Of a DNA stretch of 64,000 nucleotides, positions 12,818 to 62,853 are shown in pieces. Location: NCBI GenBank assembly GCA_017871115.1, contig JAFCIZ010000003.1:187001-251000 (forward strand), written 5' to 3'. Made by a program: the position numbers and the translations under genes. A model generated the notes under the pieces. The model did no database searches. It saw only the letters and a program-made list of their open reading frames with translations, and was not told where the DNA came from. This DNA is from Cunninghamella blakesleeana. Lineage: Eukaryota; Mucoromycota; Mucoromycetes; Mucorales; Cunninghamellaceae. How positions within the stretch are numbered: the stretch's first letter is position 1; the number at the start of each line of letters is the position of its first letter.

Positions 12818-13938
12818 CAGTGGGGGAAAAAACTGTTCATACGTTTTCAAAGTTTGACTTTGTTCTTTAATTAATCTATCAATACTTTATCAATCCTTAT
12901 GAAACTTAGAATAGTAATAGAATAGCTTATTTATAAATATATTATAAAGTTTGAGTTTAAAATATTTAGATCTCCGGTTTTTATTAAGGTTTTAAACAGC
13001 GATGTCCATATGAACAGTTTTTTCCATAATGTGAATATTAAGCATTTTCGTTCTGTTTGCCTACCTTACCTTTTATTATTGGTTCGGAAAGTATAGAATA
13101 ATGATTACTAACATAAATACATTCCGAAAAACTATTTAAACCATTATTTTTCAGTTTATTTTTTTTTATTTTCTTTCACTTTTCTTTATCACCTCAATTA
13201 AACTACCTATTCACTTTGTCCATTAATCAAGATGCCTCAAGCTTTACCTGTAGACGTCCAAAATGATTTAAAATCAATGTTGATCAATGAAATACCATAC
13301 AGTATCATTTCTAGTAGACTTGGTTTATCAAAAGGTGTCATTAGTAACTACTCTAGTAAGTGGTTCCCTAATAGAAACCGTAATCTTGGTGGAAGACCTA
13401 TTGTTGTAGCCGACAAAACTAAATCTCTTATCAAAAAAATGGTTCTATCAGGTCAACTACTAACTGCCACGGATGTCCAAAGGAAGTTATCGAACCTAGG
13501 ATATGAATTGACAGTCAAAACATCGGCTAATGTTTTAAAATCTATGAATTTTTTTTCTGCTATTAAAAAAAAGAAGCCACTTTTGTCAAAAAAGCATCAA
13601 CAGGACCGTTTAAACTTTGCAAAAAGATACAAAAACTGGACTATTGATGACTGGAGACGTGTAGTATTCTCTGACGAAACCAAAATAAACGTCTGGGGGT
13701 CTGATGGCTGCAAATATTATTGGTCAAGACCAGGTGACAAATTGAAGCCTCATCATCTTGATTTAACAGTCAAGCATGGGGGTGGAAATATAATGATGTG
13801 GGGTTGTATAACTCATTCTGGACCAGGATATGCATGTCAAGTTTACGATGGGACTATGAAAGCTAAGGATTATCAAGAAATTTTGAACACTACATTCAGA
13901 GATAGCATGGAATACTATGGTTTTGACTGGTCAGAGTA
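12818..13938 (+). mobile_element. Tc1 family B copy B1 (3' half missing here)
   Basis: Left end CAGTGGGGGAAAAAACTG at a TA. Outer site GTTCATACG and inner site CCATATGAAC are of the ATA type. Broken at 13937 by a family D end. Confidence 0.9.
13232..13937 (+). pseudogene. Family B transposase, truncated (B1)
   Basis: The first 235 residues of a Tc1 transposase. HTH residues 31-43 are of the GLSKGVISNYSSK type, which goes with ATA-type terminal repeats. The first catalytic Asp (FSDETKINVWG, residue 148) is present. The second Asp and the Glu are lost because a family D end begins at the TA within the WSEY codons. The last codon before the stop is from the inserted element. A matching 3' part lies inverted at 15683-15937, so the gene was split by insertion and then rearranged. 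Confidence 0.9.
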
Positions 13939-14020
13939 CACCTAGAGGCAAAACTGATCACGGTGCTCGCTTTTTTGATTGTTTGGCATTATATTTTATT
14001 TAATACAACTAAAAGAAATA
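13939..14020 (+). mobile_element. Family D left-end fragment
   Basis: 82 bp starting CACCTAGAGGCAAAACTGAT, matching the left end of the complete D copy at 53829. It ends at a TA where B2 begins. Confidence 0.9.
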
Positions 14021-15682
14021 CAGTGGGGGAAAAAACTGTTCGGACGTTTCCAAAATTTGACTTTGTTCTTTAATTACTCTATCAATACTTTATCAATCCT
14101 TATGAAACTTAGAATAGTAATAGAATAGCTTATTTATAAATATATTACAAAGTTTGAGTTTAAAATGTTTAGATCTCCGGTTTTTATTAAGGTTTTAAAC
14201 AGCGATGTCTATTCGAACAGTTTTTTCCATAATGTGAATATTAAGCATTTTCGTTCTATTTTCCCATTTTACCTACTATTATTGGTTCGGAAAGTATAGA
14301 ATAATAATTACTAATGTAAATGCATTCCGAAAAACTATTTAAACCATTATTTTTCAGTTTATTTTTTTTTATTTTCTTTCACTTTTCTTTATCACTTCAA
14401 TTAAACTACCTATTCACTTTATCCATTAAACAAGATGCCTCAAGCTTTACCTGTAGATGTCCAAAATGATTTAAAAGCAATGTTGATCAATGAAATACCA
14501 TACAGTATCATTTCCAGTAGACTTAACTTATCAAAAAGTACCATTAGCTCCTATTCTAATAAGTGGTTCCCTAATAGAAACCGTAATCTTGGTGGAAGAC
14601 CTATTGTTGTAGCCGACAAAACTAAATCTCTCATCAAAAAAATGGTTCTATCAGGTCAACTACTAACTGCCACGGATGTCCAAAGGAAGTTATCGAACCT
14701 AGGATATGAATTGACAGTCAAAACATCGGCTAATGTTTTAAAATCTATGAATTTTTTTTCTGCCATCAAAAAAAAGAAGCCACTTTTGTCAAAAAAGCAT
14801 CAACAGGACCGTTTAAACTTTGCAAAAAGATACAGAAATTGGACTATTGATGACTGGAGACGTGTAGTATTCTCTGACGAAACCAAAATAAACGTCTGGG
14901 GGTCTGATGGCTGCAAATATTATTGGTCAAGACCAGGTGACAAATTGAAGCCTCATCATCTTGATTTAACAGTCAAGCATGGGGGTGGAAATATAATGAT
15001 GTGGGGTTGTATAACTCATTCTGGACCAGGATATGCATGTCAAGTTTACGATGGGACTATGAAAGCTAAGGATTACCAAGAAATTTTGAACACTACATTC
15101 AGAGATAGCATGGAATACTATGGTTTTGACTGGTCAGAGTATTATTTTCAACAGGATAACGACCCAAAACATAAGGCAACATCTACTATTGAATGGATGC
15201 GACAAGAAAAGATAAAAATACTTGAAGATTGGCCGGCTCAAAGTCCTGACTTAAACCCAATTGAACATGTGTGGCACCATTTGAAGTTAAAGCTTAGTGA
15301 ATACAGTACCAGGGCTAAAGGTGTTCACGAATTATGGGAAAGAATTGATGTAGAATGGAATTCTTTTACACAGGAACAATGTAGAAGATACATAGATAGT
15401 ATGCCTGATCGTATTCAAGCTGTACTGGATGCTAAAGGCGGACCAACAAGATATTAGTTAATTAATTAGAAATTGGAAAAAACTGTTCGAATAGACATCG
15501 CTGTTTAAAACCTTAATAAAAACCGGAGATCTAAATATTTTAAACTCAAACTTTGTAATATATTTATAAATAAGCTATTCTATTACTATTCTAAGTTTCA
15601 TAAGGGTTGATAAAGTATTGATAGAGTAATTAAAGAACAAAGTCAAATTTTGGAAACGTCCGAACAGTTTTTTCCCCCACTG
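14021..15682 (+). mobile_element. Tc1 family B complete copy B2
   Basis: 1,662 bp with inverted ends CAGTGGGGGAAAAAACTG. Each terminal repeat of about 210 bp has an outer site (GTTCGGACG) and an inner site (ATTCGAAC). The flanks do not match: left is family D sequence, right is inverted family B sequence. The TA itself is present on both sides. Confidence 0.95.
14435..15457 (+). CDS. Tc1-family transposase (family B, B2), DD35E
   Basis: A 340-residue intact transposase. HTH1 spans about residues 10-45 with recognition segment NLSKSTISSYSNK (31-43), a GGRP linker at 53-56, and HTH2 to about residue 105. Catalytic residues are D148 (FSDETKINVWG), D241 (FQQDNDPKHKA) and E277 (SPDLNPIEH), with 35 residues between the last two, one more than in families A, C, D and F. 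All three acids and a full frame suggest it could be active. It is one of two family B types in the window that differ mainly in the first HTH. Confidence 0.95.
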   Translation: MPQALPVDVQNDLKAMLINEIPYSIISSRLNLSKSTISSYSNKWFPNRNRNLGGRPIVVADKTKSLIKKMVLSGQLLTATDVQRKLSNLGYELTVKTSANVLKSMNFFSAIKKKKPLLSKKHQQDRLNFAKRYRNWTIDDWRRVVFSDETKINVWGSDGCKYYWSRPGDKLKPHHLDLTVKHGGGNIMMWGCITHSGPGYACQVYDGTMKAKDYQEILNTTFRDSMEYYGFDWSEYYFQQDNDPKHKATSTIEWMRQEKIKILEDWPAQSPDLNPIEHVWHHLKLKLSEYSTRAKGVHELWERIDVEWNSFTQEQCRRYIDSMPDRIQAVLDAKGGPTRY

Positions 15683-15937
15683 TATGTATCTTCTACATTG
15701 TTCCTGTGTAAAAGAATTCCATTCTACATCAATTCTTTCCCATAATTCGTGAACACCTTTAGCCCTGGTACCATATTCACTAAGCTTTAACTTCAAATGG
15801 TGCCACACATGTTCAATTGGGTTTAAGTCAGGACTTTGTGCTGGCCAATCTTCGAGTATTTTTATCTTTTCTTGTCGCATCCATTCAATAGTAGATGTTG
15901 CCTTATGTTTTGGGTCGTTATCCTGTTGAAAATAATA
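15683..15937 (-). pseudogene. Family B transposase, inverted 3' fragment
   Basis: Minus-strand reading begins YYFQQDNDPKHKA and continues through DWPAQSPDLNPIEH to QCRRYI, the part missing from B1. It begins at a TA next to a family D end and stops at the TA beside B2. It is therefore the displaced 3' part of a family B gene first split by a D insertion. Confidence 0.9.
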
Positions 15938-32013: not shown

Positions 32014-33669
32014 CAGTGGGTGAAAAAATTGTTCACGTGTTACTCACTTTTTCACTTTTTCACTTGTATCTCTACAACGGTCAGCAGCAGCACAAAGCCA
32101 AATACAGTATTTGAAAGCCACGTTAAACAGGGTTATTTTGATGTGTAACATAGGCGGAGTTTATTATTAATATAAGCAATGAGAGCGATATAAAGGGGAA
32201 GGGGTTACGTGAACAATTTTTTCCAATGGAAAACATTTTCAATAATTCGCGTGGTACCACCAAGAACTGCTAATTAATCGTGCTGACAAATGCATTGGAG
32301 CCTTCTAGATGGTCCTACAAATTATAAAAAGTATATAAACACCATGATTTTGCTGGGAAATTCCCTATTTTACCTTCTTTTTTCGCTGAACTCTTTTGCT
32401 TACGATACTTCCCTTATCATGACTCGTGCTCTTCCTGTTGGCGTCCAAATGGATTTAAAAAACCTTCTTATGAAAGATGTACCCATGGTAACTATCTCCA
32501 AGAGGCTGGGTGTATCCAAAGGGGTGATCAGCAAGTATGCCAACAAGTGGTTTCCCAACCGCGATCGCAACCGAGCTGGTAGACCGGCGATTGTGGCTGA
32601 TGCAAGCAAGTCTTTGGTGCGTAGGAAGGTTCTTTCTGGTGCTCTTCTTACTGCTCATGATGTCCATAAAGAGCTCTTGCAGCTTGGGTACACCTTGACA
32701 GCAAAAACGGCCGGTAATGTCCTCAAGTCAATGAATTTCTTTTCCGCCATTAAGAAGAAGAAGCCTTTGTTGGGCGCCAGGCACATGAAGGCGAGGTTTG
32801 ACTGGGCGAAACGACACCAACATTGGACCATCGATGATTGGAGAAGAGTCATCTTCTCAGATGAGACCAAAATCAACATTTGGGGGTCAGATGGGTGCAA
32901 GTACTATTGGTCAAGACCTGATGATGATCTCAAGCCGCATCATATCGATGTTACTGTCAAGCATGGTGGTGGAAGCCTGATGATGTGGGGTTGTATGACC
33001 TACTATGGACCTGGATATGCATGTCAAGTATACGATGGGACCATGAAGTCGGAGGATTATATTCACATCTTGGATACAAGTCTGCGTGACACCATGGAGT
33101 ACTATGGTCTGGACTGGTCAGAGATGTATTTTCAAGACGATAATGCACCCAATCACCGTTCCGTTGCCACCAAAAGATGGATCCAGGACCAAGGCATCGT
33201 TGTTCTAGAAGATTGGCCTGCTCAGAGCCCAGATTTGAATCCAATTGAGCACCTGTGGCATCATCTCAAGCTCAAACTTAGTGTCTATGAGAAGAAGGCC
33301 AAAGGTGTCCATGAACTTTGGGAAAGATGTGATAAAGAGTGGAATACATTCACCAAGGATGAGTGTAGAAGGTATATTGACAGTATGCCAAAGAGAATCA
33401 AGGCTGTAATTGACGCTAAGGGTGGCTCAACAAGGTATTAGTGATAGATTTTAGAGAAGGAAAAAATTGTTCACGTAACCCCTTCCCCTTTATATCGCTC
33501 TCATTGCTTATATTAATAATAAACTCCGCCTATGTTACACATCAAAATAAACCTGTTTAACATGGCTTTCAAATACTGTATTTGGCTTTGTGCTGCTGCT
33601 GACCGTTGTTGAGATACAAGTGAAAAAGTGAAAAAGTGAGTAACACGTGAACAATTTTTTCACCCACTG
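32014..33669 (+). mobile_element. Tc1 family E
   Basis: 1,656 bp, ends CAGTGGGTGAAAAAATTG. Outer and inner sites share TTGTTCACGT. It sits four bases from the end of C2', separated only by TATA. It is less AT-rich in its coding region than its neighbours. Confidence 0.95.
32419..33441 (+). CDS. Tc1-family transposase (family E), DD35E
   Basis: About 340 residues from the ATG at 32419 (MTRALPVGVQ). The frame is open to 32290, but the extra N-terminus is hydrophobic and absent from the related family B protein. HTH1 contains RLGVSKGVISKYANKW, close to the B1 and B4 type. A GRP linker follows. Catalytic acids lie in FSDETKINIWG, FQDDNAPNHRS and SPDLNPIEH, with 35 residues between the last two. 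The codon use is richer in G and C than in family B, suggesting a different history. The frame is intact. Confidence 0.93.
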   Translation: MTRALPVGVQMDLKNLLMKDVPMVTISKRLGVSKGVISKYANKWFPNRDRNRAGRPAIVADASKSLVRRKVLSGALLTAHDVHKELLQLGYTLTAKTAGNVLKSMNFFSAIKKKKPLLGARHMKARFDWAKRHQHWTIDDWRRVIFSDETKINIWGSDGCKYYWSRPDDDLKPHHIDVTVKHGGGSLMMWGCMTYYGPGYACQVYDGTMKSEDYIHILDTSLRDTMEYYGLDWSEMYFQDDNAPNHRSVATKRWIQDQGIVVLEDWPAQSPDLNPIEHLWHHLKLKLSVYEKKAKGVHELWERCDKEWNTFTKDECRRYIDSMPKRIKAVIDAKGGSTRY

Positions 33670-45047: not shown

Positions 45048-45372
45048 TAGAATAGTAATAGAATAGCTTATTTATAAATATATTACAAAGTTTGAGTTTA
45101 AAATATTTAGATCTCCGGTTTTTATTAAGGTTTTAATCAGCGATGTCTATTCGAACAGTTTTTTCCATAATGTGATTATTAAGTATTTTCGTTATGTTTT
45201 CCCATTTTACTTGCTATTATTGGTTCGGAAAGTATAGAATAATAATTAATAACGTAAATATATCCCGAAAAACTATTTAAACCATTATTTTTCAATTTAA
45301 TTATTTTTATTTTCTTTTACTTTTCTTTATCACCTCAATTAAACTACCTATTCACTTTATCCATTAATCAAG

Positions 45373-46095
45373 ATGCCTCAAGCTTTACCTGTAGATGTCC
45401 AAAATGATTTAAAAGCAATGTTGATCAATGAAATACCATATAGTATCATTTCTAGTAGACTTAACTTATCAAAAAGTACCATTAGCTCTTATTCTAATAA
45501 GTGGTTCCCTAATAGAAACCGTAATCTTGGTGGAAGACCTATTGTTGTAGCCGACAAAACTAAATCTCTCATCAAAAAAATGGTTCTATCAGGTCAACTA
45601 CTAACTGCCACGGATGTCCAAAGGATGTTATCGAACCTAGGATATGAATTGACAGTCAAAACATCGGCTAATGTTTTAAAATCTATGAATTTTTTTTCTG
45701 CCATCAAAAAAAAGAAGCCACTTTTGTCAAAAAAGCATCAACAGGACCGTTTAAACTTTGCAAAAAGATACAAAAACTGGACTATTGATGACTGGAGACG
45801 TGTAGTATTCTCTGACGAAACCAAAATAAACGTCTGGGGGTCTGATGGCTGCAAATATTATTGGTCAAGACCAGGTGACAAATTGAAGCCTCATCATCTT
45901 GATTTAACAGTCAAGCATGGGGGTGGAAATATAATGATGTGGGGTTGTATAACTCATTCTGGACCAGGATATGCATGTCAAGTTTACGATGGGACTATGA
46001 AAGCTAAGGATTATCAAGAAATTTTGAACACTACATTCAGAGATAGCATGGAATACTATGGTTTTGACTGGTCAGAGTATTATTTTCAACAGGAT
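45373..46095 (+). pseudogene. Family B transposase, truncated (B3)
   Basis: The first 241 residues. HTH1 is the NLSKSTISSYSNK type, matching the GTTCGGACG/ATTCGAAC ends. D148 is present and the frame reaches FQQD, the second catalytic Asp, before the chromovirus LTR at 46096. An R to M change (QRMLSNLG) is seen relative to the other copies. The Glu-containing end is not adjacent. Confidence 0.93.
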
Positions 46096-48604: not shown

Positions 48605-51600
48605 TTATAACTTTCTTCTTTTATTTCTTACAGTTTGTTTATGATCTAGATTAATTTCAGATCTTTTTCTCCAATAAGATATAATTGTATTGATATCATC
48701 AAACTGTTTTTCTTTTTCCCATGTATCATCGTCAGCTTTATAGCTTTTCCAACGTACTCGGTATTCATAATCACCATCAGAAGTTAAACGATGATCAATT
48801 ATTTTTTCTACTTCCCATCTTTGCTCATCAGCAAATTCTGGATCCTCGGATACACTTTTTAATAAGTTTGGAGGATATTTAGAAGGTAATGGTTTTCCTC
48901 TTTTATCCATTAACTTATAGGCACCACCTTTATTCTTTTCAATAACAGTAAAGGGTCCTATATATTTAGGTTCTAGTTTTGAGGTTTTATAAGGGGTTAT
49001 CATACTAACTAGAGAACCTACTTTAAATTCTATTATTTTATTATTTTTATTAAATTTTTCTTGAGAAGCATTTCTTATTTCTTTTGTTCTTTTTATTATA
49101 GCAGGTAGGATAATGTTTGCCATATCATTTATTCTATTATGAACTTCTTTTATTCTTTCTATATGATTTTCATTAATTGAAATATCAGAATAATCTTTGA
49201 ATTCATTTAATTTTCTAGCAAACATTAATGCAAAAGGCGTAGAATTATGTAGTCTTACATATTTATTATTAATTTCTAACTGAGCACTTTTTACATAATA
49301 GTCCCAATCTCTTGCTTTTCCTTTAATTTTCTTTTTTATTGTATTCATAGCGGTTTGAAGTGTTTTTTCAGCTGCACCATTTGCTCTAGGATGATATGGT
49401 GATACTAGTCTATGATCAATTCCAGTAATCTTACACATATCTTTTATTATTTCATTTACAAATTCTGTTCCATTGTCAGATTGGATTATTTTTGGAAATC
49501 CAAAATCACAAAAGATATTTACCAATGTTTCAGCAATTGTAAAAGATGTTTTATCAATTAAAGGTTTGAGTAAAACAAATTTAGTACAGATATCTACCAT
49601 TACTAAGATATAATGATTACCTCTATGTGATTCATCTAACGGACCAGCTAAATCTATGGCCCAATGATCACAAGGTAGATTAGCTGTTATAGATGCTAAA
49701 GGATGGTAACCTTTCTTTGCAATATTATATTGCATACATTGATGACATTTTTTAATTAATTCAATTGCATCATTTTTTATATTAGGCCAATGCAATCCAT
49801 CAGCATGTATTGCTTTTTCTATTGCTTCGGCACCGAAGTGACCAAAAGCATGATGATTATTTAATATTTTTAATTTTTCGTCCTGATCTATAATTATTCT
49901 TTTATTTAATTCTTCAGGTTGTTGAAGATGATTAATAGAATAAATAGCAGCACTTCTATGATATTTTCTAATAATATCATTTCTTTCTTTTTTATTATCT
50001 ATTATTATATAGTCATCAATAGTATTTTTATTTTTACTTTCATTATGGAATTCTTTTTCGGAACCAGATCCGTTGTGGCTGTGATTATTTTTGTTTTTGG
50101 AAGAATAATTTTTCATTTTTTCTTCCTTTTCTTCTGATTTTTTATTTTCTATTTCTTTAATATTTTTAATTGTTTTTATTTTTTCTATGCCATCACCCCC
50201 TTCCAGTTTTTTTTCTACTGTAAAAAGACGAGATAAGGCATCTGGTAATATATTATTTAAACCAGGTATATGGGCAACAGTAAAGTTATATTGCAAAATA
50301 GTATCCAGCCAGTTATTCATCATAGCGTTCATTATTTTTTGCGTATGTATGTAAGTTAGAGCTCTATGATCAGTATATAAAACGAAATGATTACCCCATA
50401 AGAGCTTATGATATTTATTTAAAGCAAATACAATTGCTAACAGTTCTCTTTTTGTTGTGGAATAATTTATTTCAGATTTAGATAACGAGCGCGCCATAAA
50501 ACCAAGGTGTCTTATTTTATTATTATCATTCAATTGGAATAACACAGCACCTATACCCACGTTAGAAGCATCAGTAGCAACATAAAAAGGTTTATGCATT
50601 AACGGATACGAAATAACAGGTGTAAGGCTTATAACCTTTTTTAAAGTAATAAAGGCGTGTTCACACTGGTCATCCCATTTATTTTTTAATTCTTTAACTT
50701 TTCTTAATTTATCAAGTGGTTTTGTTAGTGTGGAAACTTTTGGAATATGTTCCCTAAAATAATTAATGACACCCAAGAATCGTTCAATATCGTTTCCTGT
50801 TTTAGGTTTTGGCCAATTTTCTACGTTTGTTAATTTTCTTTTATCCAAAGAAATACCTTTATCTGATACACAAAATCCAAGCAAATGGACGGATTGTTGT
50901 GCAAAATGGCATTTATTAGGATTTAACAACAAGTTGACTTCAGTTAATTTATTTATTACTATTTTTACATGATCAGCATGTTCTTTTATATTTTTGGAAA
51001 ATACAACAATATCATCAATAAAGGATGTAGCAAAAGGCATATCTTCCAATATTAATGCAGTCACCCTCTGGAATTTACTAGATAAAGGTTTTAATCCAAA
51101 TGGACAACCTCTAAACATGTATTGTATTCCTCTATGTGTGAAGGTGGTTTTATGTTGATCTTCAGGTGCAATCATAAATCTATGAAAAGCACTTTTTAAG
51201 TCAAGTGTTGTAAATACCGATGATCCTTGTAAAGTTAAATAAATCTCACTAATCAAAGGTAAAGGGTACTTATCATCTTGCAACAACTTATTTATGTGTC
51301 GTGGATCAAGACAAGCTCGTTTTTTAGTTTTCTTTCCATTTTCATCTTTTTTTGGTGCAAGTGTAATTGGACTATTCCATTGATTATTTACACTAGCTTT
51401 AGTAATGGTACCCTCTTTGAACCATGCTTCAACAGCTTCATCAACCAAATGCATATCAGCTTCAGCAATAGGATATTGGCGACGATAACATGATTCATTA
51501 GGTGGTGTGTCTAAATGTACAATTGATTCAGGTACTGTACAAAAAGCGTCATTAGGAATGGATTGATTATTATTTATACTGGATTGAATATTATTTATGA

Positions 51601-52324
51601 ATTGTTGTTGATCTTCTAATGATCCATAAGGACAATTATCAGGCTCAACTTCATCAATAATTTCTTCTACTTCCATTTGTTGGTGATCACCATGTGATAC
51701 AGCCAATCCTTGTAAGTAGATTCCAAGTTTATTCATAATATCAGTTCCTATTACTATTTTATAATTCTCATCTTCAGGTAAGTCCATTATTTCAAAACAA
51801 TGATCAATATTGTACTTCCCGTGTGTGAATGATAAGCTTTTAGTAACACCAATTCTTTTTATTATATTATTATTAGATGCTAAACTAATGATACCATCAT
51901 TGACTTTATTAAAAATAAAATTGTTTTTAAGGACAAAACTATTACTGATGCAACTGAAGTTACAACCAGTGTCTACAAGAGCAAACGTTTTGAAAGATCT
52001 TATAATAACAGGTACAATGATAGAATCAGTATTTTTGTTTTTAAATTCATTTTCTTTTTCTTTTTGATTTAATTTTTTATTTATTAACTTACAGTTATCT
52101 AAATCCATAGGATTTTTGATAAGTTCAGCTTCATTTTGTTTAGCATTTAGCTGTGCCATACGAAATTTGAATTCCTTCTTTGCTGCACGAAGTTCATAGC
52201 CCTTCGCACAACGATGACCAGGTATCCATTCATTATGACAATAATAACATTCATTGTTATTTTTATTAATTTTGTTTTTTATGTCCGAAGACTTATTAAA
52301 CTTTTTATGTTTCTTATTTTCATA
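48605..52324 (-). pseudogene. gag-pol: Chromovirus 2 Gag-Pol, 3' part
   Basis: About 1,240 codons from the zinc knuckle region to the chromodomain, nearly identical to chromovirus 1, with the same DTG, FIDD, RNase H, D-D-E and chromodomain motifs. The frame is open across the whole stretch up to element K at 52325; an internal Met at 52159 is not the true start. Small differences from chromovirus 1 include IIRSFKTF for IIGSFKTF and RSEINLD for KSEINLD. The gene was broken by K in the Gag region. Confidence 0.93.
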
Positions 52325-52605
52325 GGAGGTTGTCTAAATACTCGCGATCGCTACGATTCGCTCGTAAAGGATATGACCCTTTGGGCATCGACAAACTGCC
52401 AACCGCGGGTAATTAACAACGATGTACAAGAACAATTGGATGAAGACCAACAAAAGAATGGCCAGATTATATTTTTAAAACCAAAAGAAACATTCTGTAC
52501 GTTTTAAAACCAATGGTATGATAGCGGTTGGCAGTTTGTCGATGCCCAAAGGGTCATATCCTTTACGAGCGAATCGTAGCGATCGCGAGTATTTAGACAA
52601 CCTCC
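52325..52605. repeat. Element K left terminal foldback block
   Basis: Arm 52325-52406 (82 nt, starting GGAGGTTGTCTAAATACT) is the perfect reverse complement of arm 52524-52605, around a 117-nt spacer. The arm contains GCGATCGC. The first arm and spacer read as a 60-codon open frame, which may be chance or a captured fragment. Confidence 0.95.
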
Positions 52606-52680
52606 TACCAAGTGGGGGGGCCAAAATGGACAGGGACCTGAATAGTTTCAGCCCCCTCTTGGGTTTGGAAACTATACACA
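52606..52680. repeat. Element K inner inverted repeat, left
   Basis: Matches the reverse complement of 57689-57764 apart from a 7/8 difference in a G run. It contains CCCCCTCTTGGGTTTGG. Confidence 0.9.
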
Positions 52681-52750
52681 CTAAGATTGAACAGCTGTAT
52701 CCGGTGGAAACCTGCTTTTAAAATACCAATAATACATAATTTTATATTTC

Positions 52751-53827
52751 ATGTTTCCTAAAGAAGTTTTAGAAGCATTTACATTACTCATGGCCACCTA
52801 TTGGCAGTTCCTTTATATGGATTGGCCAGTAGTGCAGAAGGTCAAATACCACAGGTCAGAAATAAAACCTGTGAAGGATATCCAGTATGTCAAATCTTAT
52901 GTACTGGAACGTCTTGGTTACATCCCTGTGTTTTTCTTTTTGGTAGAACTCTTTGCTCAACAGGAATACCCTGGTCCTTATTCTCATGTGGAAAAGGGTT
53001 TATTGGTTCTCTATCAACTGCTAACTGGATGTTCTATTGCTCAAATGGCACGCTTTATACCCCAAAGCAGTTATCATGCCATTTACCAAGCGTTTTATAT
53101 AAAGTATGGTGATAAGCTAAATTCTACCCTTGATACTTGTCTACAAAAGATGTTTTCCTCTGCCAAAATTAGAATCATGTGTGCCGTCCATTTTAATCCA
53201 GAAGACTTTAAGCATGTTACTATGATGATAGATGGTCATGACTCCAGAGCAACGTATATTAATGCTGCTGATCATACCATGTTTTATTCATACAAACTTA
53301 AGAAATCTGGTTTCCGTACACAAGTTTGTACCGATGTTAATGGAATGGTATTATTCGTTTCAGATGCTGCTCCATGTTCGGATAACAACGATGGTTCTAT
53401 GTTGGCTGAAATGCGCTTGAAAAAGAAAATAAGAAAGTATGACTGTATCGTTCTTGATGGTGGTTATACTCCTTTTATAGACCGTATTATAGAACGTAAC
53501 CCTCATCTTGGTCATCATAACTTTGTGTTTCCTATCCGTAAAGCCAGAGGTGTTAGCCTTAAACCTGAAGAAGCCCACTACAATTCGGTTCTTGGTAGTT
53601 TCAGATCTTCCATCGAGTCAACGTTTGGAGATATTGGTACATTATTTCACCGGTTTAATGGCAAGTGTGTGATCCGTGTCACCGATATGGAAACGTTTAC
53701 GGTACAATTTAAACTAGCCTGCCTTCTTAGAAACATAAAGAAGTTTGTTGCAAGTGGCTGTGTATCTAATACAGAACATCATACTTTCTGGATGCAACCA
53801 AACTTCGATTATCCATCCGGTGAAAGT
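52751..53827 (+). pseudogene. Element K DDE transposase (Harbinger-like), 5' part
   Basis: The first 359 residues of a transposase of the DDE_Tnp_4/Harbinger type. A helical N-terminal region precedes the catalytic core: D161 in MMIDGHDSRA, then a TDVNGMVLFVSDAAP strand pair, D236 in CIVLDGGYTP, and E289 in SSIESTFGDIGTLFHRF, the usual IExxFG...RF end motif. At codon 359 the Tc1 copy D2 (53829-55510) splits the gene with a TA duplication. The frame continues at 55512. Apart from D2 no break is seen. The ATG at 52751 is the first in frame after the left repeat. Confidence 0.88.
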
Positions 53828-53828
53828 A

Positions 53829-55510
53829 CACCTAGAGGCAAAACTGATCACGGTGCTCGCTTTTTTGATTGTTTGGCGTTATATTTTATTTAATACAACT
53901 AAAAGAAATATGTTGATGGGTGATAAATTTTCCTTAACTAATACTCTATATTTTGACACAATATGGTTTAAAGTCCATGGTCAATAAATGGAAATTAAAT
54001 TAATTTAAAAAAAAAAATCCAAAATTTCCGGATCGGTGATTTTTAAAAAAAAGTTTGTGTTTTTATTTAAACCTCCATGGCCTGTTTCAAATCGGTCAAT
54101 ATTTTATTTCTTCAAATATTTATATTCTGTATTTTGTATATTTATTTTAACCTTCTTCTTTTTCTCTTTACATTTATTTTTAAATTGCATAAGTTTTACT
54201 GTGATCAAATACTTGATATTTTATTAATATGACTTATATTACAAGACAAAAGAAACAATATATAACTGATGCAATAAAACATGGTGATACTCATAGGGCA
54301 ATAGCAGAAAAATATAATATATCTGTTGGGGAAATATCAAAAATTAGACAGTCAATTGGGCCAATAAAAACATGTCACGGTGGTCGACCAAAAAAAATAT
54401 CCAAACATACCTCTAATTTAATTGCTAGATCTATTAAAACGGGGAAGGTTATCAATGCTGTTGAAACTCAGAGATATTTAAAGTATAATAATATTAGTGA
54501 TGCAAGCCTTCGGACTATTCGTAGGTTCCTTAAATCTCGAAACCTTTTTGCTCATAAAAAAAGAAAAGTATTTCCAATATCACGTGATGTCAAAAAAAAC
54601 CGTTTGCAGTTTGCAAAAATGTATGGTGGTTGGGACTCTAGTGATTGGGATAAAGTAATCTTTGCTGACGAAACTAGGGTGCACAGGTTTGGTGGAGAAG
54701 GCTATCAGTGGGTGTGGGGAGAAAGAAATAGGCCTACAAAACCACATGAAGTATATGAAGTGCCAAAAGGTGGTGGAGGTTCAGTATGCCTTTGGGGTTG
54801 TATAACAGCGCAAGGTGTCGGTTACTTGACTAGAATAGATCCGACCATGGATACGCAATTGTTTATAGATATCATGAATGACGAATTTATAAAAACTGTA
54901 GAATGGTATAACTTTGACAAATCACAGGTTAAATTGTTGCAAGATAAAGATCCTAAACATACAGCAAAAGCATCCCAAGAATGGTACAAAAAAAACAATG
55001 TGGATTTACTTTATTGGCCTACGTACTCTCCTGATTTAAATCCCATTGAAAACATGTGGGCTTATCTAAAGCAATTGTTACATGAAAAGTATGCTGAACC
55101 TGCTGTATCATTGGATGATTTGTGGGAACGTATCCAAGTCATTTGGGATTCTCCGGCTATGAACAATATGGCTAAAACTGTTGTCCATTCCATGCCTAAG
55201 AGGTGCGATTTAGTAATACAAAATAAAGGTGATCATATACATTATTAAACAGTAGATATCAGTTATTGTATGAAGTTGTATTTTTTTACAGACTTATAAA
55301 AACTAGAAATAAAAATTTTAAAATACATTTTTTACATAATAAACACATTAATAGTATTTGTATTACTGCATGAAAGAAAAGTCAATCATGCGAGGATACA
55401 TTTAAAGAAAATAAATAATTAAACTTGTATTTGAATATTTAGTACAAAATCAAGTCCAATCAAAAATAACTAAAAAATCAAAAAACCGTGATCAGTTTTG
55501 CCTTTAGGTG
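53829..55510 (+). mobile_element. Tc1 family D complete copy D2
   Basis: 1,682 bp, ends CACCTAGAGGCAAAACTGAT and inverted CACCTAAAGGC, TA on both sides, inside the element K transposase gene. Confidence 0.97.
54229..55248 (+). CDS. Tc1-family transposase (family D, D2), DD34E
   Basis: The only uninterrupted family D gene in the window, 339 residues. HTH1 at about 8-42, GGRPKK linker (51-56), HTH2 at about 60-102. Catalytic acids D147 (FADETRVHRFG), D239 (LLQDKDPKHTA) and E274 (SPDLNPIEN). The usual Asn after the second Asp is Lys. All catalytic acids are present, so it may supply transposase for D1 and D3, whose genes are broken (inference). Confidence 0.95.
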   Translation: MTYITRQKKQYITDAIKHGDTHRAIAEKYNISVGEISKIRQSIGPIKTCHGGRPKKISKHTSNLIARSIKTGKVINAVETQRYLKYNNISDASLRTIRRFLKSRNLFAHKKRKVFPISRDVKKNRLQFAKMYGGWDSSDWDKVIFADETRVHRFGGEGYQWVWGERNRPTKPHEVYEVPKGGGGSVCLWGCITAQGVGYLTRIDPTMDTQLFIDIMNDEFIKTVEWYNFDKSQVKLLQDKDPKHTAKASQEWYKKNNVDLLYWPTYSPDLNPIENMWAYLKQLLHEKYAEPAVSLDDLWERIQVIWDSPAMNNMAKTVVHSMPKRCDLVIQNKGDHIHY

Positions 55511-55511
55511 T

Positions 55512-55856
55512 AGAAGCATCTATAGTGTCATGAATGATATTACAATTGCTGAAAAATCCAATGATGCTAATGAGATGATAGCCCTACAGCAACAGTTCTT
55601 ATCATTGGGAATAGATGAAGACGATTGCATGGAGGATGAAGGCGTTGATGGTGAGGAATTACCAAGCGGACATTACGAAGTGGAAGCTATCACTGCTCAT
55701 CGTGGACCTAAACATCGCCGGGAGTATTATGTTAAATGGGTAGACTACGATGAAAGTAACAATAGTTGGCTTACTGCTGACCAATTCGATAACCCGGATA
55801 CAGTGGCTGACTATGAGAAGAAATATAAGAAGATGAAAAGAATTACCATTGTTTAA
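55512..55856 (+). pseudogene. Element K transposase, 3' part with chromodomain
   Basis: Joined in frame to 52751-53827 when D2 and one TA are ignored (codons GAA AGT AGA AGC across the site). It adds about 114 residues: a helical linker (DITIAEKSND), an acidic segment, and a chromodomain at the end with the aromatic cage pattern HYEVEAIT, YYVKWVDY and NNSWLTADQF. The whole transposase would be about 473 residues. Chromodomains bind methylated histone tails and are known from chromovirus integrases; a fusion to a Harbinger-like enzyme is unusual. A separate small gene is the alternative, but no good start codon lies after D2 upstream of the domain except the internal Met in SVMND. Confidence 0.85.
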
Positions 55857-55965
55857 AACTTTTTTTTTTAATGGTATTCTCTCTCCAATTGCCTCCTCTT
55901 TTTTAAAAAATAGAATACTGTCTATATTTTTAAAAGTTTATTATATTATACAAAGGCAATAACAA

Positions 55966-57642
55966 ATGTCTATAGAAAATCTGTTTGTAGATTATAGCCA
56001 ATACCTCAACAATGTGTATGGGGTTGATTATATTAACTTAGGAAAAGAACGCACGGGATGGGATTATATAAGTGCTGTTTTCTGTGACAGTCTTGTACTT
56101 TGGTATGCTGTAAATTGGAGCCAAAACAAAATGCAATCAGAAATTAGTATGGCAATGGCTCTCCTTCGTGGGATCTTGAATTGTTGTTTAAAGACAACAC
56201 AGTTCAAGATCTTCTGTATTGGCAAAGGTAAATGGACAACTGATGATAAGAATGCCAAAAAATTACACAAAAGAAAGGCAAAGAAACTTGACATTAATAA
56301 AGACGAATACCAACCAGGATATATTTCCATGCGTGTTTCCTTTGAAAACATTCCCTATGAAGAACTATGGCCAAAACTCAAGGAAATTCTTCGCAAGGCT
56401 AGAAAACAATGCATGATACTCCATGATTTAGACATTAGTGTAGATTGTGCCTACATCTCAACACGAAATGTAATTAAAGAATACATTCTTGCCAATGGTG
56501 TAAAGGAAAAGGATATTGTAAACGATCGTAACTCTGTTGGTGATAATTGTATATCATGGAAAAAGAATAGTGGAACTGATACCGATAATAATATCCCATT
56601 AAGAATTAAAGTATACAACAAGTTTGTACAAATGCTGGAGAGCCGTGAATTACGATCTTTAATGGGTTCTCAACTTCACCACTTGGTAGCTAACCCAAAT
56701 AAGGACTTCCAAGAACACATTGCCAACTATCGACGCCGTGGTATGACCAGAATAGAAATAACATTTTATACTGCTGACTTTAAGGAAGAAGACTATTACA
56801 CTAATATAATGTCAGAGATGCTTAAATTTCTTAATAATTGTCCAACGTACAAAGTTAGCTTTGACAAACAGTGGAAGCAATTGTCCAGTAGACTTACACA
56901 AATGCTAGCTGTCTATGTACCAGACAAGGAAACATTTGCTTATTGTCACTGGTGGAACTCTCTTACTCGCCGTATGCAAGGTGTGATAAAAAGAAATGTA
57001 CCTGAAGATTATAGCATGTTACACCTTGCAAATTTATCATTCAACGATCGACCAATCCATTACCTAGTTGTCAAGTTCAAGAAGAATGGAGGATATAAAG
57101 TTTTACAAGAGAGTGTATATTATCGTGAGAAGGGTTGTACTGCTATTACGATTGTCCCAGGATTGTCTAATTCGTTGACACCATATCGTAAGGATATGAA
57201 AACTGTAGCTCTCCCTTTTGCTGATGTTGGATTAAGAAACTACAACAACATCACACTCGAATGGCCTGAACAACGATTGCGAATGGATAGAGGTGACAAG
57301 CTTGCCAATATTGTACTGGCCAAAGAGGAGTCCAACCACGATACAGAAAGATGCCTGGAACACCTTGATCCTTTCCCTACAACCAGAGCCAAAGCTGACT
57401 ATCTGGCAATGGAAGCTGGTGAAGATTACCAAGTAATTGGTTATGGCAAAGGTAATTTCCGTGGAAAAGATTACCTGTATCTAAAGATCTCTGGTGGATT
57501 TTCTGTTCGCTGCAGTCGTGGTATGGAACAAGAAGTACACAATGTACTCAAGAAAAACGCATTGTTCACCATTCGTATTATTCGCATTAAGAAAGTACAT
57601 GGAATACGCGATGTTGAATGTGAAGTAATTCGCAGCCAATAG
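55966..57642 (+). CDS. Element K second protein, possible Rep-like initiator
   Basis: A 558-residue protein of unrecognised family, about 110 bp after the transposase stop and on the same strand. A central region has a DLD triplet (154-156, MILHDLDISVD), then RIKVYNK (213-219) and TRIEITFY (261-268). This order of DxD, (K/R)xxxY(D/N)K and RxE resembles plasmid Rep_trans-type replication initiators; the likeness is remote and rests on motif order only. A C-terminal part (about 480-558) is beta-rich and could be an OB-like fold (inference). No HUH motif was located with confidence. Harbinger elements normally carry a Myb-like partner, which this is not. It is intact. Confidence 0.8.
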   Translation: MSIENLFVDYSQYLNNVYGVDYINLGKERTGWDYISAVFCDSLVLWYAVNWSQNKMQSEISMAMALLRGILNCCLKTTQFKIFCIGKGKWTTDDKNAKKLHKRKAKKLDINKDEYQPGYISMRVSFENIPYEELWPKLKEILRKARKQCMILHDLDISVDCAYISTRNVIKEYILANGVKEKDIVNDRNSVGDNCISWKKNSGTDTDNNIPLRIKVYNKFVQMLESRELRSLMGSQLHHLVANPNKDFQEHIANYRRRGMTRIEITFYTADFKEEDYYTNIMSEMLKFLNNCPTYKVSFDKQWKQLSSRLTQMLAVYVPDKETFAYCHWWNSLTRRMQGVIKRNVPEDYSMLHLANLSFNDRPIHYLVVKFKKNGGYKVLQESVYYREKGCTAITIVPGLSNSLTPYRKDMKTVALPFADVGLRNYNNITLEWPEQRLRMDRGDKLANIVLAKEESNHDTERCLEHLDPFPTTRAKADYLAMEAGEDYQVIGYGKGNFRGKDYLYLKISGGFSVRCSRGMEQEVHNVLKKNALFTIRIIRIKKVHGIRDVECEVIRSQ

Positions 57643-57688
57643 TACTTGTTTAAAAGCCAATTTCCATTATTACAGTAGGAGCTATCCT

Positions 57689-57764
57689 TGTGTATAGTTT
57701 CCAAACCCAAGAGGGGGCTGAAACTATTCAGGTCCCTGTCCATTTTGGCCCCCCCCACTTGGTA
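57689..57764. repeat. Element K inner inverted repeat, right
   Basis: Reverse complement of 52606-52680 with one extra C in the C run. Confidence 0.9.
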
Positions 57765-58045
57765 GGAGGTTGTCTAAATACTCGCGATCGCTACGATTCG
57801 CTCGTAAAGGATATGACCCTTTGGGCATCGACAAACTGCCAAACGCGGGTAATTAACAACGATGTACAAGAACAATTGGATGAAGACCAACAAAAGAATG
57901 GCCAGATTATATTTTTAAAACCAAAAGAAACATTCTGTACGTTTTAAAACCAATGGTATGATAGCGGTTGGCAGTTTGTCGATGCCCAAAGGGTCATATC
58001 CTTTACGAGCGAATCGTAGCGATCGCGAGTATTTAGACAACCTCC
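57765..58045. repeat. Element K right terminal foldback block
   Basis: Arms 57765-57846 and 57964-58045 around a 117-nt spacer. As written on the plus strand it is a direct copy of the left block with a single difference (A at 57843, C at 52403), so the spacer has the same genomic orientation at both ends. Confidence 0.95.
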
Positions 58046-58138
58046 ATAAGGTTTAGAATAACCTTTATTATATTTTTTATTGGATTTGGCACCAATGGTA
58101 GCAGCAGAAACACCTATATCCATCTTATCAGGATTATA

Positions 58139-60874: not shown

Positions 60875-61426
60875 TGAAAAATATGTTAAAATTAAAAATA
60901 GGTAAAATAAATAGTTTTTATATATAAAAGAGAAAAACAAAATAATTAAGTGAAATTCCTTAGTTGGTTGTTTTTATTATAAATATAAGATGAAGATTGT
61001 AATAATAATCTAATTCTGCTTTGGTATTTAAATAATATTTCACTTTTCATATGATTAGTGATATTAATCAATATGATTTATAACCCCATTATGACGATCT
61101 TTCATATATTTTATTATTACTATATGATGATCCATGATAACTGTCATTGGTTCTTTTATATATTAATGTAGTAATATAGTTAGATTCAATATAGGGACTT
61201 TTAACATTTAGTTTATAAAGTTAAGTTTGACAGTTTAAAGATAATAATATATCTGAGTTAGATTTAACTCCTTATTTAGTATAGCTATCCATTTAAATAA
61301 AAGATTATATATTTTAATCTCAGTGCACTTGACAATCATTATCATTATTTTACTTCATACTATTTACTATTATATAATCATAGTATTATATTTGTTTACT
61401 ATAAGATAAAATAGACTGATACGACA
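60875..61426 (-). repeat. Chromovirus 2 5' LTR
   Basis: 552 bp. It has several differences from the chromovirus 1 LTRs, including a gap near 61025, so this LTR is more diverged than the pair in chromovirus 1. Confidence 0.93.
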
Positions 61427-61929
61427 CCTGGTCTTGACCAATAATATTTGCAGCCATCAGACCCCCAGACGTTTATTTTGGTTTCGTCAGAGAATACTAC
61501 ACGTCTCCAGTCATCAATAGTCCAGTTTTTGTATCTTTTTGCAAAGTTTAAACGGTCCTGTTGATGCTTTTTTGACAAAAGTGGCTTCTTTTTTTTAATA
61601 GCAGAAAAAAAATTCATAGATTTTAAAACATTAGCCGATGTTTTGACTGTCAATTCATATCCTAGGTTCGATAACTTCCTTTGGACATCCGTGGCAGTTA
61701 GTAGTTGACCTGATAGAACCATTTTTTTGATAAGAGATTTAGTTTTGTCGGCTACAACAATAGGTCTTCCACCAAGATTACGGTTTCTATTAGGGAACCA
61801 CTTACTAGAGTAGTTACTAATGACACCTTTTGATAAACCAAGTCTACTAGAAATGATACTGTATGGTATTTCATTGATCAACATTGCTTTTAAATCATTT
61901 TGGACGTCTACAGGTAAAGCTTGAGGCAT
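61427..61929 (-). pseudogene. Family B transposase, N-terminal part (B4)
   Basis: About 168 residues, HTH1 of the GLSKGVISNYSSK type in agreement with its ATA-type ends. D148 in FSDETKINVWG is present; the frame ends at WSRPG next to the LTR. B3 on the other side of chromovirus 2 is of the other HTH type, so B3 and B4 are not two halves of one element. Confidence 0.93.
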
Positions 61930-62343
61930 CTTGATTAATGGACAAAGTGAATAGGTAGTTTAATTGAGGTGATAAAGAAAAGTGAAAGAAAATAAAAAAA
62001 AATAAACTGAAAAATAATGGTTTAAATAGTTTTTCGGAATGCATTTATGTTAGTAATCATTATTCTATACTTTCCGAACCAATAATAAAAGGTAAGGTAG
62101 GCAAACAGAACGGAAATGCTTAATATTCACATTATGGAAAAAACTGTTCATATGGACATCGGTGTTTAAAACCTTAATAAAAACCGGAGATCTAAATATT
62201 TTAAACTCAAACTTTGTAATATATTTATAAATAAGCTATTCTATTACTATTCTAATTTTCATAAGGATTGATAAAGTATTGATAGAGTAATTAAAGAACA
62301 AAGTCAAATTTTGAAAACGTATGAACAGTTTTTTCCCCCACTG
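61427..62343 (-). mobile_element. Tc1 family B copy B4, truncated
   Basis: Right-hand end is inverted CAGTGGGGGAAAAAACTG at 62343, with TA following. Sites are of the ATA type (GTTCATACG outer, CCATATGAAC inner). Cut at 61427 by the chromovirus 2 LTR. Confidence 0.93.
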
Positions 62344-62353
62344 TATATTGTTG

Positions 62354-62716
62354 TTAATTATCTTCATCTGGAATATATTCTGAATGTTCACTATCACTTG
62401 CACTATCACTACTACTTTCTATCTCATTATAAGCTCTTCTGCTAGGAATAATGGTAGGAATTGTATCACTATTTGAAGCAAAAGGTACCTCGTATTCTAT
62501 CTCTTCTGTATTAAAATATTCTGCATCCTCTTCCTCTTCTTCATCTTCTTCGTTTAGCCAATAAAAATTTGTATCCTTAATAGCATTCAGCATACCTTCC
62601 CAAAGATTATCTTTATTTTTTCTACGCCACATAAATTCAACAAGACGGCAAGGTAACAAGAGTCTAGTGCGTGTTCTAGGACGCAAATTTATTTTAATAC
62701 CATTCCAGGTACCTAT
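62354..62716 (-). pseudogene. Merlin/ISXO2-like transposase, last exon
   Basis: Minus-strand reading begins after a TTTTATAG splice acceptor with GTWNGIKI, then RPRTRT, LVEFMWRRKNKDNLW and a long acidic Glu/Asp/Ser tail ending at 62354. ISXO2-like (IS1016/Merlin) transposases have an EGxWxxIK...RxRT...FxWRRKN pattern at this point, and the catalytic Glu would be on the previous exon, which is missing beyond B5. There is no ATG at the exon start. The acidic tail is not typical of the family. The assignment rests on these motifs only. Confidence 0.6.
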
Positions 62717-62750
62717 AAAATAAAGTTAAACTAATTATAGCTTTCATCTA

Positions 62751-62853
62751 CAGTGGGGGAAAAAACTGTTCGGACGTTTCCAAAATTTGACTTTGTTCTT
62801 TAATTACTCTATCAATACTTTATCAACCCTTATGAAACTTAGAATAGTAATAG
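62751..62853 (+). mobile_element. Tc1 family B end fragment B5
   Basis: 103 bp starting CAGTGGGGGAAAAAACTG with the GTTCGGACG site, cut by an LTR scrap. Confidence 0.88.

Follow-up and report, generated by a model that had tools for sequence, protein, structure and literature searches.

The element described here occupies positions 52325 to 58045 of a 64,000-nucleotide stretch of Cunninghamella blakesleeana DNA (the window; C3:187001-251000 of a 31.9-Mb genome assembled in 12 contigs, cited below as C with a number). Each of its ends is formed by a foldback block. The blocks are followed inward by an inner inverted repeat, and the two inner repeats enclose a transposase gene and a second gene (Table 1). 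We consider it probable that this is a composite-like Harbinger/IS5-like (PF13359) DNA transposon that is moved by its block ends and carries a Rep_trans-like partner protein. The layout, the insertion as one unit, solo blocks with their own target duplications, a turned spacer, and the recurrence of the layout in other elements are all read directly from the sequence.

Table 1. Features of the element and its insertion site, in window coordinates
Feature	Position	Strand	Remarks
Left target duplication	52322..52324		ATA; basis: single ATA in 11 empty sites
Left terminal block, 281 bp	52325..52605	+	Arms 52325-52406 and 52524-52605, spacer 52407-52523
Left inner inverted repeat, 75 bp	52606..52680	+	Starts with TACCAAGTGGGG
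Transposase gene, DDE_Tnp_4 (PF13359) part	52751..53826	+	Open frame continues to 53893 within the nested mariner
Nested Tc1/mariner-type element	53827..55512	+	28-nt ends, TA at each edge; outside the composite proper
Transposase of nested element (DDE_3, HTH_Tnp_Tc3_2)	54229..55248	+	
Chromodomain C-terminal part of split transposase	55530..55856	+	
Second gene, 558 aa	55966..57642	+	Rep_trans-like residue pattern
Right inner inverted repeat, 76 bp	57689..57764	-	
Right terminal block, 281 bp	57765..58045	+	Arms 57765-57846 and 57964-58045, spacer 57847-57963
Right target duplication	58046..58048		ATA

Blocks, inner repeats, and transposase

The initial annotation had described each end as two 82-nt complementary arms (perfect at the left, one mismatch at the right) around a 117-nt spacer, with a further 75-bp inverted repeat inward, and had proposed that the arms could form large hairpins; the analysis bore this out. 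The arms of the left block were complementary at 82 of 82 positions and those of the right block at 99%, with the single odd base read at 57843. The two blocks are direct repeats that share 280 of 281 positions, and their spacers are identical. In single-strand DNA folding, the left block reached -116.6 kcal/mol compared to -28.7 kcal/mol (standard deviation, 3.6) for 200 shuffled sequences; the z value of -24.8, with none of the shuffles folding as well, excludes chance. The inner repeats match perfectly over 67 bp; in addition, a run of G differs in length by one base, hence their lengths of 75 and 76 bp. The left inner repeat formed a hairpin on its own when folded. On their inner sides, the blocks are flanked by TAC and GTA; because these do not form a duplication, a separate insertion of either block next to the core can be dismissed. 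A comparison with Rfam returned matches below threshold only; the match to MIR841 (69.1 bits; gathering threshold, 200) is a reflection of the hairpin.

The transposase matched PF13359 with 42.1 bits (cutoff, 24.8), in agreement with the Harbinger-like character assigned to the element in the initial annotation. D161, D236, and E289 (numbering of the homologue P0089) were invariant in all 27 aligned transposases, and the same motifs are present in the window frame. The nested mariner element separates the PF13359 part from the chromodomain; P0089, an unsplit relative, is a single protein of 473 aa. Named homologues of the two genes came from Mucoromycota-type fungi, e.g., Rhizomucor, Apophysomyces, Cunninghamella, and Mortierella. 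A scan of viral contigs with P0089 gave pattern matches and no relative.

Insertion as one unit, solo blocks, and related elements

ATA is found at both outer edges of the element. The left flank is present at 13 places in the genome, 12 of which were cut as loci, including the window's own; 11 of these 12, all related retrotransposon copies, aligned without a gap across the insertion site and contained one ATA, i.e., the empty site. A sister copy (C2:1872470-1878171) has the same ends and CTA on both sides, and its empty site is represented by a 67%-identical retrotransposon paralogue that aligns ungapped at the joined site. The genome contains these two full copies, each with blocks at both ends, and their cores are 99.8 to 100% identical outside nested insertions. 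A genome search with the inner repeat yielded four good matches, all within the two composites. While the window blocks are direct, those of the sister are inverted, the spacer of one C2 block is flipped, and the entire 357-bp end of this copy is a perfect inverted repeat. A flipped spacer would be expected from recombination across the 82-bp arms. The C2 transposase is split by a different Tc1 insertion and has two stops within the match. From the sequences at both sites, it is apparent that the element moved as a single unit with a 3-bp duplication. The initial annotation's claim that the blocks belong to the mobile unit thus holds, with ATA and CTA duplications and both empty sites seen; of the several copies that it named as support, one sister with the same boundary and a 3-bp duplication was found.

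The insertion target is a retrotransposon whose polyprotein frame (1,184 aa; window positions 48605-52159, minus strand) is of the Ty3 type, as read from sequence. Nested transposons abound in the window, with several Tc1-type copies at 13028-15684, 32628-33472, 45169-46095, and 61425-62853; these belong to two families that are related to those nested in the composites.

A search of the genome with the block returned 40 matches; by the nature of the search, copy counts are lower bounds. Besides the four composite blocks, we found six full-length solo blocks (one on C6, split by a Tc1 element, one on C7, two on C10, and two on C1) and fragments at five places (three on C4, one on C5, and one on C6). 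Two of the six full-length solos carry their own 3-bp duplications (ATT/ATT at C6 and TAA/TAA at C7). Equal 3-mers at two random places of the window occur with a probability of 0.025, which gives a probability of 0.009 for two or more of six. The identity of the solos to the composite block ranges from 100% down to about 68%, so that the block family must be older than the two composites. Taken alone, the block resembles a miniature inverted-repeat transposable element (MITE) in being short and noncoding, with 82-bp inverted ends and a duplication in some copies, but it lacks the high copy number of MITEs. An exact pattern search for block-block junctions (dimers) found none; at C1:5168371-5168877, two old blocks lie head to head, 2 bp apart, one of them without its first 43 bp. 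As judged from these sequences, the blocks are both part of a larger unit and mobile units themselves. The initial annotation had held that blocks occurring widely as independent elements with their own duplications would speak against its reading. This applies in part, since such solos do exist, yet both composites keep their blocks; the two states are not mutually exclusive, and we therefore describe the element as composite-like.

The search for PF13359 retrieved five places over the cutoff: the two composites, L048 on C7, L046 on C2 (position 12345), and L047 on C3. A degenerate locus, L049, was added by protein search. The direct terminal repeats of L048 are identical over 223 bp (223 of 224 columns, the last being flank), end in GATG...CATC, and are flanked by CAT on both outer sides; solo relatives of this repeat are numerous (23 match rows), and one of five sampled solos has a duplication (TAT). 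L047 has direct terminal repeats identical at 238 of 238 positions, with ends GAGGATTG...CATTCCTC, and the repeat sequence was found nowhere else in the genome. Neither the L047 nor the L048 blocks are strong foldbacks. L049 has a 221-bp palindrome at the left, partial direct repeats (80 to 83%) at the right, and a transposase with stops. L046 has no blocks; it has short imperfect ends (GAGGA...) and a CTT duplication within a Tc1 element, which shows that a 3-bp duplication fits this kind of transposase. All four transposases with intact frames contained PF13359. A chromodomain over or near the cutoff was detected in those of L046, L047, and P0089, and no Pfam chromodomain was detected in that of L048. 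In the trees, L047 and L048 were sisters (support of 0.992 in one tree and 99 in another), L046 and P0192 together formed the neighboring group, and the family of the window element was placed elsewhere. L048 also has a second frame of 124 aa (L048 5645-6019), for which Pfam gave no match.

Some further loci carry block-like or repeat-like pieces. At C4:10660-13695, an inverted duplication of 1,345 bp (99.8%) has a 59-bp piece of a block arm precisely at its inner edge; a block hairpin may have seeded this rearrangement. On C10 (L010 3466-4046), a solo block adjoins a separate foldback of about 584 bp with 92% self-complementarity. The 74-kb contig C9, which appears to consist of two copies of about 36.5 kb arranged head to tail (99.98% identity over 5,847 bp) and encodes an RNA polymerase Rpb2-like protein, contains twice a 46-bp stretch that is 87% identical to the inner repeat of the composite (C9:26000-32000 and C9:62500-68500 loci). 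C9 is possibly an extrachromosomal plasmid- or virus-like element.

The second protein

No Pfam family was found over the cutoff for the second protein. In its 52 aligned homologues, D41, D156, D160, K215, Y217, K219, Q222, R262, and E264 were invariant, and the position of R177 of Rep_trans was occupied by K in 52 of 52. The structure was predicted with confidence (mean pLDDT, 91.2). In a fold search, RepSTK1 (PDB 4CIJ) gave the longest alignment of the 50 rows, spanning 176 residues within residues 33 to 292; we weighed this match by alignment length and residue pattern and not by Z. The rows ranked above it were S-adenosylmethionine lyases, S6 proteins, and proteins of mitoribosomes, all of which have two-layer folds of a common kind. 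The PHROG replication protein family phrog_702 was detected in P0014 only (1 of 52 members; 40 of 52 were rescanned). A sequence search of the PDB gave no match with the family alignment and two matches with P0014 (E values of 0.65 and 1.2), tblastn of P0014 in phages and plasmids gave none, and a scan of viral and prokaryotic contigs with the alignment produced pattern matches and no relative. From the residue pattern and the structural model, we infer that the protein may be a Rep_trans-like tyrosine nickase.

Seven contigs of equal size (3383, 3407, 3363, 3700, 3343, 3985, and 5721) were common to the homologue lists of both genes (for the transposase, the best 120 of 243), which suggests, with contig size as a proxy, that the two genes sit together elsewhere. 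In P0067, transposase and second protein are fused.

Mechanism, alternatives, and known systems

In the mechanism that we infer, which covers the nicking step as well as the assignment of each protein to its ends, every terminal block would be a minimal transposon in its own right, having a left and a right end (GGAGGTTGTC...GACAACCTCC). If the transposase pairs the two outermost block ends, the whole 5.7-kb unit (3.4 to 4 kb once nested insertions are subtracted) would be cut and pasted with a 3-bp duplication; if it pairs both ends of one block, that block would move alone in a MITE-like manner. The ends of L046 resemble the block ends (GGAGG, GAGGATTG), which supports the block ends as the natural substrate of the transposase. 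Recombination across the arms could invert the spacer, and exchange between blocks could leave solo blocks or refill them. The second protein may nick the cruciform-prone blocks at extruded hairpins, as is described for Rep_trans proteins and an extruded stem-loop (PMC4797284). A more far-reaching version, which we offer tentatively and think rather doubtful, has two cutting enzymes: the DDE transposase would move unit or block, and a eukaryotic Rep_trans-like tyrosine nickase would open the extruded hairpin blocks, copying or turning them, keeping the pair identical and so maintaining the layout. KolobokP, discussed below, would then be convergent and use a different nuclease. Since L047 and L048 have blocks but lack the gene for this protein, it cannot be required for the layout.

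Several observations weigh against the composite-like transposon with a Rep_trans-like partner. The inner repeat and its TA edges lack an explanation in it. Four of the six full-length solo blocks, and four of the five sampled L048-repeat solos, have no 3-bp duplication. L047 has none either, because its two flanks derive from different Tc1 copies. With both composites broken, the genome contains no intact transposase of the window family. Multimers and losses at block-core junctions, as seen in KolobokP, were not found among the genome matches, which include only two full copies. L046 is nested among the block-bearing L047 and L048 on the tree but is itself block-free, so the layout either arose repeatedly or disappeared from L046. 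With regard to the second protein, the RepSTK1 match had a Z of 6.5, which is under the level that the tool regards as telling, and seven rows ranked higher; PF02486 was not seen among the 25 of 35 Pfam families listed; and the Rep of phage XacF1, which belongs to PHROG families other than phrog_702, had no profile similarity to the family alignment.

The order block, TA, core, TA, block would also be produced if an ordinary transposon core (ends CCAAGTGGGG, TA edges) had inserted at TA between two unrelated MITE copies and the whole had been moved by a foreign transposase. Such a chance macrotransposon is compatible with a block family that predates the composite, with composite blocks of 99.6 to 100% identity next to solos of 68 to 87%, and with the old adjacent pair on C1. 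We regard it as unlikely: the core was seen only with blocks, as were all good matches to its inner repeat, no block-block junction was found by exact pattern, the same layout recurs with unrelated blocks around other PF13359 genes, and the block ends resemble those of block-free L046 (GAGG...). It is improbable, too, that a solo block came first and was later refilled by recombination with a circle of block and core, so that the outer duplication would date the solo block, a route proposed for KolobokP (PMC9587614). Refilling would yield direct blocks with an unchanged duplication, and the palindromic arms would permit either orientation; however, it needs two events for two composites, and no circle or multimer was seen. 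In a reading modeled on Galileo/Foldback elements, the terminal inverted repeats would be long foldbacks and the blocks just internally palindromic parts of 356-bp ends, which would account for the perfect inverted repeat at the end of the C2 copy. The duplications of the solo blocks already disfavor this view, and the direct arrangement of the blocks in the window element, L047, and L048, together with the weak foldbacks of the latter two, makes it very improbable.

The second protein might be an accessory DNA-binding protein like ORF1 of PIF/Harbinger and not a nuclease. We take this to be a real possibility, if a little short of an even chance; against it stand the invariant tyrosine and three carboxylates, which in the predicted structure occupy the Rep_trans positions on the expected strands.

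The initial annotation did not recognize this combination of features, but a published parallel exists in another superfamily. It also missed the difference in block orientation between the two copies, the recurrence of the layout in further PF13359 elements, and the second gene. Our literature search, with Repbase, Dfam, and subscription papers outside its scope, found KolobokP as the only parallel to the paired block-ended layout. As reported (Kojima and Bao 2022, PMC9587614), KolobokP is an animal element of the Kolobok superfamily unlike any other DNA transposon, with repeats of about 450 or 660 bp that have 11- to 18-bp inverted ends, duplications of mainly 3 to 5 bp depending on the family, a His-Me finger nuclease, and multimers. 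Both systems have an internal region around a transposase gene between long terminal repeats that carry inverted ends of their own, target duplications at solo repeats (here, two of six), and a DDE transposase with a second protein thought to cut DNA. The present element differs in its fungal host, its chromodomain-bearing transposase, which Pfam assigns to PF13359, its 281-bp block with 82-bp arms, its 3-bp duplications, its Rep_trans-like protein, a single orientation flip, and the absence of observed multimers; no Pfam match to a His-Me finger nuclease was found in the two core genes. It is not a KolobokP, because transposase and nuclease differ, but by analogy it would work like one. If so, paired mobile ends would be present in two transposase superfamilies and two kingdoms; they would thereby be a recurrent design of eukaryotic transposons, one that joins an autonomous element and its MITEs in a single object. 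With block-bearing and block-free elements and solo blocks in one genome, gain and loss of the layout are open to study.

The second protein shares its catalytic residues, strand order, and a weak fold match with Rep_trans (PF02486) initiators and MOBT relaxases such as RepSTK1 (PMC4797284, PMC6499999). It differs from them in lying below detection by sequence search, in the K at the R177 position, in an extra 45 residues between the tyrosine and R-x-E, in an extra C-terminal half, and in its association with a fungal DDE transposase. If confirmed, the presence of a rolling-circle-initiator-like protein next to such a transposase would bring two recombination chemistries together in a new way, and a nickase of this kind would offer a testable explanation for the lasting pairing and identity of the end blocks.

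Elements of the PIF/Harbinger group typically duplicate TTA/TAA and encode a Myb/SANT-like second protein. The window element shares with them the DDE_Tnp_4 transposase, the 3-bp duplication, and MITE-like small relatives. It differs in its paired block ends, in the chromodomain on the transposase, and in duplications of ATA, CTA, CAT, and CTT in this and the related elements; TTA/TAA was not found at the two composites, and TAA was found at one solo only. No Myb/SANT-like match was seen for the second gene among the 25 of 35 Pfam families listed. Foldback/Galileo elements of the P superfamily also have long self-complementary ends, but we know of no such ends that exist as independent units with their own duplications, as the blocks do here. 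In bacterial composite transposons, two mobile end modules likewise carry a central segment, although their transposase gene is located in the end modules, whereas that of the window element is in the middle.

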